Assembly: GCA_002719775.1 (NCBI GenBank) | Contig: PBEP01000020.1 | Span: 1-40,389, forward strand | From: Chloroflexota bacterium | GTDB lineage: Bacteria > Chloroflexota > Dehalococcoidia > Lucifugimonadales > Australimonadaceae | DNA length: 40,389 bases | Direction of reading: 5' to 3' | Shown: positions 1 through 5,526 of the stretch, piece after piece | How the letters are laid out: every line of letters begins with the position of its first letter | Numbering within the stretch: position 1 is the first letter of the stretch | Translations under genes and position numbers: made by a program | The notes under the pieces: model-generated | Told to the model about the DNA's origin: nothing | Seen by the model: the letters and a program-made list of their open reading frames with translations, nothing else | Database searches by the model: none

Positions 1-20
1 ACTCCCATGCACTCCCGCCA
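1..20 (+). tRNA. 3' terminal 20 nt of a probable tRNA-Sec, cut by the window edge
   Basis: ACTCCCATGCACTCCCGCCA is identical to 281-300, the T-loop/T-stem/acceptor/CCA end of the tRNA-Sec-like 3' half. The 5' part lies outside the window. Confidence 0.55.
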
Positions 21-101
21 AGCTCTATTTAGCTGTAAATATGAGCCTGATGCCTTTAGCACATAGCCAATATCACTTCCCCCTGGCATCGAGGCCATAG
101 G

Positions 102-125
102 ATTAGTACCCCCATTAGTACCCCC
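102..125 (+). repeat. Perfect tandem duplication of a 12-mer, ATTAGTACCCCC x2
   Basis: ATTAGTACCCCC at 102-113 and 114-125, inside the spacer between the two tRNA-Sec 3' ends. Confidence 0.9.
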
Positions 126-234
126 AAGCTAAGAGAAAGCTGTAGCTGATTCAGTTGATTACTGGTGGTTGTGTACGCCTAACTAGCTCTATAAGCATGT
201 GCTAGGTATTAAGGCTAGAAGTGGTGGTAAAAGA

Positions 235-300
235 ACTTCAAAACCGTTGGGGGGATATTACGTATTCCTCGGTGGGTTCGACTCCCATGCACTCCCGCCA
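235..300 (+). tRNA. tRNA-Sec (UCA) 3' half fragment: anticodon loop to CCA, no matching 5' half
   Basis: CTTCAAA anticodon loop (TCA), long variable-arm hairpin GGGGGATA-TTACG-TATTCCTC, T-arm GTGGG-TTCGACT-CCCAT, then 8-nt acceptor strand GCACTCCC + G + CCA, as in bacterial SelC (8+5 architecture). Upstream sequence cannot pair with ACCGTT of the anticodon stem, and no GGGAGTGC 5' acceptor strand occurs at 21-234. Confidence 0.72.
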
Positions 301-362
301 CACAAGTACAGTTTTTCCTGAGTGGTAATATACCCAAATTTGACTATGGTTGTTACTTGAAT

Positions 363-581
363 TTAGATCTGTTTGAATACAATAACCAAACCTATTGCTA
401 CGTAGACACTTCCTAATAAAACCCCAAGTGCGATCCATTCACTTTTTTTATTTGGCAAATTCACTGGAATCCCATGCCATTTAAATGATTTCATATTCTG
501 TCCTTCCATAAGATACGTATAAAGCGATGACATCTCCGCTGGAGTAATTTTCTCAATATAGTATTTTATATTTATGTCCAA
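363..581 (-). CDS. Small protein with C-terminal transmembrane segment, hypothetical
   Basis: 72 aa ORF with hydrophobic C-terminus (WIALGVLLGSVYVAIGLVIVF); divergent from the next gene. Confidence 0.4.
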   Translation of the reverse strand: MDINIKYYIEKITPAEMSSLYTYLMEGQNMKSFKWHGIPVNLPNKKSEWIALGVLLGSVYVAIGLVIVFKQI

Positions 582-595
582 TATAGGGAGTTTTT

Positions 596-1213
596 ATGAA
601 TTCTAGAATTCTTTCAGGATGGCTCTTAATCGTTGGCCCCTTGGCTATACTGACTGCATTTCTTATGTGGCCTACTAGTGCTGAAACAGCTCAAGAGGAG
701 TTATTAGAATTAGCCAAAAATCCTTCAAGTAGCATCGGGGTTATGGCGCTTTTTATTACTGGGATCACATTACTTTTTTGTGGTCTTTCAATTGCTTCCA
801 GAGCAATTGATGAAAGTAAATGGTCTTCGCTATCAGTTGTCTCTGCCACATTATTCCCGTTAGTTATTCCCATAATGATGGGTTCTGTCGGCCTTAACTT
901 TGGTGCCGTTCGGCTTTTTGAAACATCACCGGAAAGTGCCAGTGCAATTTATCTAACTGGATATCACCTAACTGATGTAGCTGATTTACTGATGGGCATA
1001 TCTTTCGTTTTTTTTGCTGTAGCTTTAGTTGATCAATTCAAAGATTCTTTACGTAGGGGAATTGGATTTCTATATCTGATTATCGGGGTTGTCCATATCA
1101 TTTCTGTATTTGCACAAGAAGACGCAATGGATATTGCTGCTTGGATGGGCATGTTTATTGTATCAATAGCATTCGGAGTTGTAGTGCTCAGAGCAAAAGC
1201 TAGTAATAACTAA
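596..1213 (+). CDS. Multi-pass membrane protein, hypothetical
   Basis: 205 aa with several hydrophobic segments; GGGAG upstream of ATG. Confidence 0.8.
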   Translation: MNSRILSGWLLIVGPLAILTAFLMWPTSAETAQEELLELAKNPSSSIGVMALFITGITLLFCGLSIASRAIDESKWSSLSVVSATLFPLVIPIMMGSVGLNFGAVRLFETSPESASAIYLTGYHLTDVADLLMGISFVFFAVALVDQFKDSLRRGIGFLYLIIGVVHIISVFAQEDAMDIAAWMGMFIVSIAFGVVVLRAKASNN

Positions 1214-1266
1214 AGCATTTTAATGCAAATCTACATAGCCAACTGTGTAGTAGGACGGACGAAGAT

Positions 1267-2163
1267 TTGAGCGTATTTAAAGGGATATGCCTAGGGTTCC
1301 TATTTTCATTTTTTTATGGCTTAATTCCAGGATTTTTCATTCTGATGTTGCTTGGTGGTATTTCATCCAGCTTTCTTCCGGGAATTTCTGTAATGGGGAG
1401 CTCAACAATGGGCCCACTTGTACTGCCCTTCATAAGCATGGTGATAGGAGTCTTCATATTCCCAGTCGCTGGAGCACTATGGGCTAGAAAAGGCGCAGGT
1501 GAGAGTAAAGCGAAATTAGGGGTAAGCACTTTATTAGTACATACTTTATTTGCATATGGCTTGTTAGTGAGCATAACCCTAGAAGTCCCAGAAGGATACC
1601 AAACCGATATTGGCCCCCCCATTCAAACTGAAATTTCAGCACCTGAGAAGCAGACTCTGGCAGCTCCCACCATTGAGGGTTTGAATTATTACGAGCAGGG
1701 TTTAAAACTATTGGAGGATCGGAATTATCCCTTAGCGATAGAAAACTTAACGGGGTTCATTAACATAAACCCTAAGCATTTGGAGGCATACATGGCGAGA
1801 GGGCATGCGTATGCCTCCCTAGAACAATATGACAAAGCCTTAGTTGATTATGAAATGGCTAATCAGCTAGACAAGAGCTACGTTTGGCCTTATCACTATT
1901 TGGCCTTAACACTAAGAGATCTTGGTCGATACCAAGAATCTATAAATAATTCGGAAACATATGTTGAATTACGTTTAATGGAATCAGATGTTTGGTCAGA
2001 AACTGAGCAAGGATTGGGAGCATATTTCCATATGGGCGAAGTTTATTTTCAAATTGGCCAGTACAAAAAATCTATTGAATATTTTGATAAGGTTCTAGAA
2101 ATAGATGAAGATCACGCAGTCGCACTTCAGAAGAAATTGGAAGCTGCAGGCTTGATTGAATAG
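1267..2163 (+). CDS. Membrane protein with C-terminal TPR repeats
   Basis: TTG start; N-terminal TM segments then TPR-like repeats (YYEQGLKLLEDRNYPLAIENLTGFININPKHLEAYMARGHAYASLEQYDKALVDYEMA). Confidence 0.8.
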   Translation: MSVFKGICLGFLFSFFYGLIPGFFILMLLGGISSSFLPGISVMGSSTMGPLVLPFISMVIGVFIFPVAGALWARKGAGESKAKLGVSTLLVHTLFAYGLLVSITLEVPEGYQTDIGPPIQTEISAPEKQTLAAPTIEGLNYYEQGLKLLEDRNYPLAIENLTGFININPKHLEAYMARGHAYASLEQYDKALVDYEMANQLDKSYVWPYHYLALTLRDLGRYQESINNSETYVELRLMESDVWSETEQGLGAYFHMGEVYFQIGQYKKSIEYFDKVLEIDEDHAVALQKKLEAAGLIE

Positions 2164-2204
2164 AGCCTTAGCTCCATCAAAAACCAACACTTTCTGATTT
2201 TTAA

Positions 2205-3125
2205 TTAACTAAGACCCCACTTAAGAACAACTGGGTCGAGTGGTTCCATTAACTCGAAGAGTCCATTTTTCGAACTCTGGTCAAGGGGCTGAATCGGATG
2301 TCGTGAAAAATCTGACTTAATTACTTTTCCTTTGAGCATTGCTGCTTTTGTTCCACGGAATCCACACTGTCTATTTTCATAATTAATGATCGGCAACACT
2401 TGTTGATAAGAAGTTTTAGCAATGTCACGATTCCCGGATAAATGTGCATTTATGATTGGACCTATCAGGTCTGGAATCAGTGCTGAGGTCATGGATCCGG
2501 TTGCACCCGCATCCAAATCAGCAAGTAAAGTAATGCCCTCTTCACCATCAAAAGGACCTTCAATTGCAGACCCGCCTATTGCTAGCAGTTGCTTTAACTT
2601 GTTAGCTGCTCCAGCAGATTCAATTTTGAATAGCTTCACCATTTCAATTTCATTAGCCATTTTTGCTAATAATGATACTGGAAGATCAACACCTGATAAT
2701 GGCGCATCTTGAATCATAATGGGTATTCCAACATCGCCTACTGCCTTAATTTGTTCAAATGTTTGCTCTGCGTTTCCTTTGAGTAAAGCCCCATGATAAG
2801 GAGGCATCATCATTACTACAGATGCACCTAGATCACGGGCTAGTTGAGCACGCGTAATAGCGATAGGAGTGGCAAAATGGCTGATAGTCACAATTACAGG
2901 CACGCGTCCATTGACATGATCTAAGCAAAGTCTCGTTAAATGGTCACGTTCATGGTCAGAAATTAAGAACTGTTCTGAGAAATTTGCAAGGATGCATATG
3001 CCATCGACTTTTTGATCCACCATGCAATCGAGAACGTTTTTCATACTTTGATCATCGACTGTACCATTATCGTGGAAAGGGGTGGGGGCTACTGGCCAAA
3101 TGCCTTTGTAGATTGTACTGACCAT
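2205..3125 (-). CDS. Dihydrodipicolinate synthase / N-acetylneuraminate lyase family protein
   Basis: KGIWPVAPTPFHDNGTVDDQSM N-terminus typical of the DHDPS/NAL TIM barrel. The given ORF extends to 3215, but a start at 3125 (or 3149) avoids overlap with the upstream gene. Confidence 0.85.
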   Translation of the reverse strand: MVSTIYKGIWPVAPTPFHDNGTVDDQSMKNVLDCMVDQKVDGICILANFSEQFLISDHERDHLTRLCLDHVNGRVPVIVTISHFATPIAITRAQLARDLGASVVMMMPPYHGALLKGNAEQTFEQIKAVGDVGIPIMIQDAPLSGVDLPVSLLAKMANEIEMVKLFKIESAGAANKLKQLLAIGGSAIEGPFDGEEGITLLADLDAGATGSMTSALIPDLIGPIINAHLSGNRDIAKTSYQQVLPIINYENRQCGFRGTKAAMLKGKVIKSDFSRHPIQPLDQSSKNGLFELMEPLDPVVLKWGLS

Positions 3126-3156
3126 AGGACTATTAACCTCTATTAACATATTGGGA

Positions 3157-3999
3157 CTAGATCTCTCTTCTTGAGTACCTTCGCCATGCAAGTAATGCAA
3201 GTATTGGGGAAGCAATTAGAGTAGAGATGAGGGGTTTGTATCTGAAGTGCGCGTCTAACTCAAAGACCTGTCCAAAAAATGAAATCATTCCGGAATTTAC
3301 TTCTGATTCTGTGACAGACATAAATGCCTGTGTATCGCTTAAAGCTGCGGGCCACCAAAGGAGTGTTCTCCCTACATAGGACACATACTCCCATTCTACT
3401 GGAGGAGTGTCCATGAGCCCACGCATTAGCAACTCCACAGTTATTAGTGTTGTACCAATGATCGGTATTCCGATAAGTACTGCCAGGGTTAACAATACTG
3501 AAGCAACAGAGCCTCTGAAAATTGATGAGGTGAATAACATGAGTGACACATAGAAAAAGCCTGAAATTAGCTCCAAAAAAATACCCCATAGTACCCAATT
3601 GAGATTAAGGGGATCAGAAGTGTCAAAAAGAAACATGCTGATGATTAAAGTTAAGATAAATCCTGAGTAGAAGAGAATACCAGAAAACGAGAAGTATATT
3701 ACTAACTTCGTGAGAATTATTTGCTTCATGGTGAATCTGGTTCTGAGGAATATCGAAGAATCCTTGTTACTATCAAAAGCTAAAGAGGAAACAACAATTC
3801 CGACGAACACTAATAACCCGACAATTGAGATAGTCATGTACAAATCTAGCGCTCTAGCGTGGGAGAAATTTGCATAAGCACGGTCGATGAATATTCCTAT
3901 AACAACCGCCAATATGCTTGCTAATAGGTAAAATCCTATTAAAGTCCAGCCGCGCCAACTACGGTATAAATGAATGAGTTCCATTTTCCACAAATTCAT
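3157..3999 (-). CDS. ABC-2 type transporter permease
   Basis: 280 aa, six or so TM segments, overlaps the adjacent ABC ATPase gene by 4 nt. Confidence 0.8.
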   Translation of the reverse strand: MNLWKMELIHLYRSWRGWTLIGFYLLASILAVVIGIFIDRAYANFSHARALDLYMTISIVGLLVFVGIVVSSLAFDSNKDSSIFLRTRFTMKQIILTKLVIYFSFSGILFYSGFILTLIISMFLFDTSDPLNLNWVLWGIFLELISGFFYVSLMLFTSSIFRGSVASVLLTLAVLIGIPIIGTTLITVELLMRGLMDTPPVEWEYVSYVGRTLLWWPAALSDTQAFMSVTESEVNSGMISFFGQVFELDAHFRYKPLISTLIASPILALLAWRRYSRREI

Positions 4000-4700
4000 T
4001 CGACGTTACCTTTTGACAGGAGCAACTCAAGCACTGCATCTTCGAATGATTGTCCAGCGGATTTTCTAATTCCACTGACACTACCTCCATACAATGCCTT
4101 GCCCTTATTAACTACCGTTACAGAATCACAAACGTCCTCTACATCGCTTAGAATGTGAGTAGAAAACAAGACAGTAGATTTTCCTCTCATCTGAGAGATC
4201 GTGTTTAAAACTTCTCTTCGCCCAATGGGATCCAATGCTGAACATGGCTCGTCCAGCAGGATAAGCTGAGGTTTGCCGATTAAAGCCGTAGCTAGACCAA
4301 GGCGCTGTTTCATTCCTCTAGAAAAACCTCCAACTTGCCGATCAGCTGAATCCTGTAACCCAACCTCTTCTAATATTTTTGAAACAGCATCTACATTCAC
4401 TTCTTTTCGGAAGGGCCATCTTGCGAGGTCTACGACTTCCTGAGCAGTCAAAAGAGGAAAAAAATCAGGAGTATCGGGCATTAACATCATCTGGTTTTGT
4501 GGAATGCTAAATTTGATGTCACCTGAGGTCTTGCGCTTAAGCCCAGATACAATTGATAGCATAGTGGTTTTTCCAGCTCCATTTGGACCCACAAAGCCGT
4601 GAATTGAGCCAGAATCGAGTATGAGGTCCAAGGAATCCAGAGCATAAACATTGCCAAATGTCTTCGTAAGACCTGAAAGCGTTAGTATCGGGGGCATCAT
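3996..4700 (-). CDS. ABC transporter ATP-binding protein
   Basis: Walker A GPNGAGKTT, signature FSRGMKQRL, Walker B LILLDEP. Confidence 0.95.
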   Translation of the reverse strand: MMPPILTLSGLTKTFGNVYALDSLDLILDSGSIHGFVGPNGAGKTTMLSIVSGLKRKTSGDIKFSIPQNQMMLMPDTPDFFPLLTAQEVVDLARWPFRKEVNVDAVSKILEEVGLQDSADRQVGGFSRGMKQRLGLATALIGKPQLILLDEPCSALDPIGRREVLNTISQMRGKSTVLFSTHILSDVEDVCDSVTVVNKGKALYGGSVSGIRKSAGQSFEDAVLELLLSKGNVE

Positions 4701-4884
4701 TTCACCAACTTAATAAATGGAGCAAAAATAACTTCGATAAATATCTTATTCCAAGTCTTTGTAATTGATAAGCTTTAAAAATGGAATTGATATCAACCAA
4801 AATAACGATCGTAATCCCTTATTTCAAAGCTAAAAGATTGCAAATACGCTATTTTGAACTCTACCTCTCGTGTAATCTTTAGAA

Positions 4885-5526
4885 ATGCTAAAAGCTTTAC
4901 TCCTTACTTTCTTTATTATATTTGGATCAGCATGTGGCCCTACAGAGGTCATAGTCGAAGTAGATGAAGTTAACGTTGATACAGAATTCAATAACTCGAT
5001 GCAGATGCCAAATTACACACAATCTGAGATTGGCACTGAAAATCTCCGGGCTACAATTGTTATCCCTACACCAGTTGGACTGGAAGCTATCAGTGAAGCA
5101 GTTGGTGGACTGTCTACTCTCTCCGAAGAGTTACAAAAAACTGTAGGAGGGTTTAGTGATGTGATTCAGTCACTGAATACTCCCACTCCTTCTGTCAAAA
5201 CAGAAACAGCCAATGCTGGAAAAACAATAGGTCTGAATGAATTGCTTTTGTCAGGGTTCATCGTAACTGAGGAAACTACCTCATCTTGGACCTATGAAGG
5301 ACTTGAGAGAAGTTATAAAGGGTATTTTCAGCTAGATAACTTGCAGAGCTTTCTTGAAGTACTTATTTTTGTTGATTCTATAAGTGACCCATCATTTGCT
5401 AGCTCAATTGCAGTAGATTTTTTTCGAAAAGATAACCGCGAAATCAGTATTACGAAAAATATAGTGTTTGCTTGCGCATCAAAAGAAGTTTGTGAAAGTT
5501 TGACTAGGCTAATATGGGTGGGGTGA
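4885..5526 (+). CDS. Putative lipoprotein, function unknown
   Basis: Signal peptide with lipobox (FFIIFGSAC). Confidence 0.7.
   Translation: MLKALLLTFFIIFGSACGPTEVIVEVDEVNVDTEFNNSMQMPNYTQSEIGTENLRATIVIPTPVGLEAISEAVGGLSTLSEELQKTVGGFSDVIQSLNTPTPSVKTETANAGKTIGLNELLLSGFIVTEETTSSWTYEGLERSYKGYFQLDNLQSFLEVLIFVDSISDPSFASSIAVDFFRKDNREISITKNIVFACASKEVCESLTRLIWVG

Follow-up and report, generated by a model that had tools for sequence, protein, structure and literature searches.

The first 300 bases of the window, which is the entire 40,389-nt contig C20 of the host assembly (G000:C20:1-40389), probably represent both ends of an element that entered selC by site-specific integration and lost its middle. 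In this model, the anticodon-loop part of selC would have been the crossover site of a recombinase, putatively of the tyrosine type. The element would have brought a new 3´ half that restored the gene, and the last 20 nt of this new half would be bases 1–20. The original selC 3´ half of the host would have been displaced to the far side of the element, where bases 235–300 are found. Between these two segments, the spacer would retain a left arm (21 to about 126), where the tandem 12-bp repeats may bind an integrase, as well as a short right arm (about 185–234), with no integrase and no cargo. The likeliest history would be the internal deletion of a larger island, leaving a scar that could be moved only by a recombinase acting in trans.

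The displaced selC 3´ half and its direct repeat

The displaced 3´ half, which is read as attR, occupies bases 235–300 of the forward strand. It comprises the anticodon loop (CTTCAAA, 236–242), the variable arm, the T arm, the 3´ strand of the acceptor (GCACTCCC, 8 nt), the discriminator G and a CCA that ends at base 300. The variable arm folds as an unbroken 9-bp hairpin. Aligned with a selC gene of the type found in relatives, the 3´ half reaches a score of 91 versus a shuffle maximum of 31, whereas the alignment of the preceding bases with the selC 5´ half stays at the shuffle level (p = 0.18). In an alignment with 24 intact selC genes, the similarity begins at the anticodon loop. Comparison of bases 1–330 with 393 genomes of the class recovered many selC genes (best E 4e-17), and these matches start at approximately 233–237 or later and stop at 299–312. 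The Rfam covariance model for tRNA-Sec matches bases 217–296 with 27.6 bits versus a gathering score of 47; the score falls below the cut-off because the 5´ half is unpaired. ARAGORN detected no tRNA anywhere in the window, and the complete cloverleaf of a functional tRNA-Sec, with paired acceptor and anticodon stems, is not present at 235–300. GGGTTCGACTCCCATGCACTCCCGCCA occurs once in the 40 kb and is absent from 100 shuffles. To the right, between 300 and 4885, where an older island could have left its mark, no further selC fragment above chance was found in the window.

The first-pass annotation, which had recommended ARAGORN and a covariance-model search, had assigned this segment to tRNA-Sec from the anticodon loop through the CCA, recognized the 8-nt acceptor strand of SelC and placed the end of the similarity at the anticodon loop. 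It had also regarded the right copy as a displaced att-type selC fragment. The direct reading, the model match and the alignment scores bear out the first three assignments, and the split at the anticodon loop together with the same layout in related genomes agrees with the fourth.

Bases 1–20 (ACTCCCATGCACTCCCGCCA, forward strand) contain the 3´ strand of the T arm, the 3´ strand of the acceptor, the discriminator G and the CCA, and are identical to bases 281–300 in the same orientation. The recurrence had been reported by the first-pass annotation; the exact identity stands, and the length of 20 nt has to be read as a lower bound, because base 1 is the contig end, which truncates the left copy, and the repeat may continue into leftward sequence that cannot be read. 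The repeat is not a product of chance, as eight shuffled patterns gave 0 matches over 1.14 Mb of selC loci. The reading of the left copy as the attL junction is supported indirectly, since the sequence that follows it matches the sequence after the intact selC gene in G005, a genome of the same family. An intact selC gene would then lie to the left of base 1, as suggested by the 20 nt and the arm homology.

The host genome (G000; Dehalococcoidia-type, Chloroflexota) comprises 1.28 Mb in 24 contigs and is 75.6% complete. It is termed Dehalococcoidia-type after the closest matches to its selC fragment, which come from Chloroflexota and chiefly from Dehalococcoidia. No selC match above the cut-off was found in this 75.6% complete assembly, and a scan of the assembly for the selC 5´ half returned background only; such a match was obtained in 36 of 39 genomes, a set to which the genome of the window belongs. 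The usual upstream neighbours of selC in relatives are trxA and an ABC binding protein gene. Neither trxA nor, in a search run without a positive control, the ABC binding protein gene was found in the host assembly. Use of selenocysteine by the organism is suggested by a selB match that exceeds the curated cut-off, and because selB is present, the host selC should sit in the unassembled quarter of the genome. The selB gene is apparently split between two contig ends (G000:C7:59055-59825 and C14:118174-119178), which suggests that C7 and C14 are neighbours. Apart from XerC/XerD-like proteins, no recombinases were found in the 75.6% complete host genome.

The spacer and its putative arm sites

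The two selC-derived segments enclose a spacer of 214 nt (21–234, no strand assigned) without genes. Outside the selC part, no match was found in the 393 class genomes, in phages or in plasmids. No integrase remnant was found in the spacer, and its RNA structure is no better than that of shuffles. Bases 44–126 (forward strand) are homologous to the DNA directly after the intact selC gene in G005 (local alignment score 55; shuffle maximum 36) and probably belong to the left arm. This alignment includes the tandem motif GTACCCCCATTNGTACCCCCA. At 102–125 of the forward strand, 81 nt after the CCA, a 12-bp direct repeat (ATTAGTACCCCC) is present twice in tandem and may form a pair of integrase arm-type sites. 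Besides the selC repeat, it is the sole repeat of 9 nt or more in bases 1–600.

Tandem repeats of 11–12 bp are also located 59–78 nt after selC in G001, G004, G005, L055, L058, L085, L227 and L238, with differing sequences. Counted at 55–85 nt after selC, they occur at approximately 8 of 149 selC sites, integrase-bearing loci among them; such a tandem repeat is found at that position in 0.9% of random windows, or in 0.2% when 11 or more matches are demanded. In G004, tandem repeats follow the intact selC gene (attL side), and none are visible by eye in the flank behind the displaced fragment on the attR side. From their sequence and position, the tandem repeats after selC are candidate recombinase arm sites. 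A second pattern is formed by AGCTCTAT, which directly follows the CCA (21–28, forward strand; possible left arm site) and is present again 51 nt before the displaced fragment (185–192, forward strand; possible right arm site). The p value of about 0.005 for the AGCTCTAT pair is post hoc and weak; this pattern and the tandem repeats were noticed after several kinds of repeat search, and the figures for both are descriptive and not those of pre-planned tests. The AGCTCTAT pair has the same geometry as GATACGAA, whose copies in the L058 and L096 ends lie at positions +1 and −57.

In two E. coli genomes, a comparable motif is found close to genes of element type, namely a phage integrase in one genome and an integrase fragment in the other; with E-values of about 6, these matches are only suggestive for the arm-site reading. 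A literature search on the GTACCCCCATT repeat returned unrelated papers only.

selC loci in related genomes and competing explanations

Comparison with related genomes, which the first-pass annotation had likewise recommended, revealed both a selC site that may be unfilled or healed (G009) and integrase-bearing selC loci (L058 and L085), and supports site-specific integration at selC. In G009, trxA, selC and a homologue of the small lipoprotein-like gene at 4885–5526 (forward strand) of the window are all adjacent, so that this gene marks the downstream flank of selC. G009 shares 12–13 nt after the CCA with the element side of G004, a member of the sister genus. In G004, trxA and selC are located at the end of contig C21, with approximately 337 nt remaining, and contig C5 opens with a correctly oriented selC 3´ end of 31 nt, after which comes a homologue of the same gene (41–43% identity for the homologues in the two genomes). 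From this layout, G004 very probably carries an element at selC, and its assembly broke at the same repeat as that of the window.

In the window, the 4885–5526 gene lies 4.6 kb to the right of the fragment. Because of this distance, the right flank underwent other rearrangements that fall outside the integration model. No second scar was found between the fragment and the gene. Five host-like genes are present in the interval (300–4884). The neighbourhood in G026 was set aside as maybe an unrelated rearrangement; lut-type genes are found 4 kb from selC there, and in the window their homologues are 28 kb away from the fragment.

Across genome contigs, the TTCGACTCCCATGCACTCCCGCCA pattern identified 79 stretches, nearly all from Chloroflexota; most are intact selC genes and a minority are displaced 3´ fragments. 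The displaced fragments start at the anticodon loop, as in the window, in L057, L059, L091, L096 and L097, and in the T arm or T-loop in L049, L072, L076, L082 and L106. Second selC copies within a locus have the same orientation as the first. The spacings from selC to the fragment are 0.7 kb (G044), 1.1 kb (L106), 1.4 kb (G243), 1.7 kb (L082), 2.6 kb (L057) and 14 kb (L089/L059). Phage_integrase (tyrosine recombinase) genes adjoin selC in L058 and L085 and the displaced fragment in L076. Islands with selC at one end and a displaced 3´ fragment at the other are present in many Dehalococcoidia, and selC is a recurrent integration site across this class.

The contents of several loci were recorded as well. 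Tyrosine recombinase genes are located directly downstream of selC in L058 (547–2929), L085 and L123 (G007). L058 has an additional small helix-turn-helix (excisionase-like) frame, and the recombinase-like frame of L123, just under the Pfam cut-off, overlaps the selC 3´ end. The 698-bp unit of L243 (G044:C252, reverse complement 2310–3008) extends from selC to a degenerate displaced 3´ half and encodes nothing but a HicA toxin and an antitoxin that resembles HicB (Pfam), forming an integrase-free mini-island. The other selC-bounded units encode a nucleotidyltransferase and a HEPN protein (1.1 kb, L106:1–1174), an endonuclease/exonuclease/phosphatase-family protein (1.4 kb, L244 of G243, 2299–3744), and a DUF5131 protein with an unassigned 257-aa protein (1.7 kb, L082:1509–3245). 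In L246 (G056:C68), selC is present twice on a single contig, with 4.5 kb between the copies, both of which appear intact. The 256-bp spacing in L085 was dropped as a parallel mini-element: the second copy abuts a run of N and extends into the D arm, and is probably a further selC copy at a scaffold gap. No viral contig with an exact selC 3´ end was found, and six viral-contig matches to the anticodon-loop pattern were rejected as attP, with no tRNA in any of them.

Among the alternatives to a single integrated element, the one that survives best, although it is unlikely, is a tandem array. Bases 1–20 would then be another displaced fragment, at least one further element would separate base 1 from the true selC, and the 214-bp unit would belong to an accretion series. 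The fragments of L096 and L049 are located 12.2 kb apart on one contig, with no intact selC there, and G242 and G115 have four and three selC matches, respectively. The ssrA islands of Dehalococcoides also form tandem series, some without integration genes (PMC3146451), and the contig of the window breaks exactly at the repeat. However, a single element is the simpler explanation, and the left arm matches the DNA right after the intact selC gene in G005, a match that is compatible with an array as well. Slightly less plausible is a mini-element that is complete but not autonomous: the 280-bp unit would consist of a tRNA 3´ half with a recombinase arm at either end of the spacer, and larger selC islands would supply the integrases that move it in trans.

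It is quite improbable that the 214-bp spacing is unreal and arose in assembly, either because the left and right arms of a larger island were falsely joined or because a repeat was collapsed. The selC 3´ ends are located 100 nt or less from a contig end in 7 of the 79 loci, versus 1.2 expected, so a contig end at the selC repeat of the window is unsurprising; the assembly of G004 breaks at the same place. A false join would have had little sequence to work with, however, given that the tandem 12-mer is the only other repeat of at least 9 nt in bases 1–600, and other assemblies also contain small spacings, such as those of G044 (698 bp) and L106 (1.1 kb).

It is very improbable that the selC 3´ end and the neighbouring DNA were simply duplicated in tandem on the spot, without a recombinase. 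Precedents are found in L051 (7519–7870; 128-bp unit) and L038 (G020; about 92-bp unit), in which plain tandem duplications of the selC 3´ end and the following DNA mimic att repeats. In the window, however, the DNA after copy 1 (21–100) and that after copy 2 (301–380) are unrelated (p = 0.57), and the fragment starts at the anticodon loop, which is integration-like. Least credible of all is a decayed or unusual tRNA in place, in which bases 217–300 would be either a pseudogene of selC or a tRNA that is split or permuted: the weak full-length Rfam alignment (27.6 bits) would allow it, but the 3´ half shows no damage and the 5´ half does not rise above chance, decay would not halt at the anticodon loop, and a separate 5´ half was not found in the host assembly.

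Relation to known tRNA-gene islands

Integration into selC followed by loss of the middle would place bases 1–300 close to known systems; they behave like the scar of a tRNA-gene island and probably are one. Islander catalogues anticodon-loop and T-loop-type crossover subsites in tRNA genes and defines islands by a length of 2–200 kb and an integrase gene within or overlapping the island (PMC4383910). Like the tRNA/tmRNA islands of this class, the window has an anticodon-loop split and a displaced 3´ fragment (235–300) downstream, in the orientation of the gene. It differs from them in its size (280 bp as assembled, far under the 2-kb limit), in the spacer, which has no gene or integrase remnant, and in that no intact gene is visible, with 20 nt at the contig end and no intact selC in the incomplete assembly. 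The Dehalococcoides ssrA islands with tandem cis-mobilizable members (PMC3146451) also occur in Dehalococcoidia, target a single-copy RNA gene, have 20-bp 3´ direct repeats and include members without integration genes, but they use ssrA instead of selC, a T-loop crossover and the serine recombinase DsiB. The Pf-tRNA-Sec prophages of Pseudomonas (PMC7549136) share selC as attB and a duplicated 3´ end (27 bp in Pf), but they use the T-arm/acceptor end and are large functional elements of another phylum. selC is also mentioned in an enterobacterial context (PMC7545054). For selC islands in Chloroflexota, no paper was found in the open-access literature, which is weak evidence. The enterobacterial selC islands have selC as attB and a duplicated 3´ end, and are large functional elements in another phylum. 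The mechanism is known, the unit is unusually small and the host group is new.

Very small integrase-free units occupy selC, and standard island finders are designed to discard such units, which are shorter than 2 kb and have no integrase (PMC4383910). If the 280-bp unit were a complete mini-element, it would be the smallest of the class-wide integrase-free selC mini-islands, such as those found in G044 (698 bp) and L106 (1.1 kb). If such units move in trans, individual toxin-antitoxin or defence-like modules would have a minimal vehicle in them. The contig breaks that recur at selC may explain why this tRNA gene, which is required for selenoprotein synthesis, is absent together with its islands from some draft genomes.
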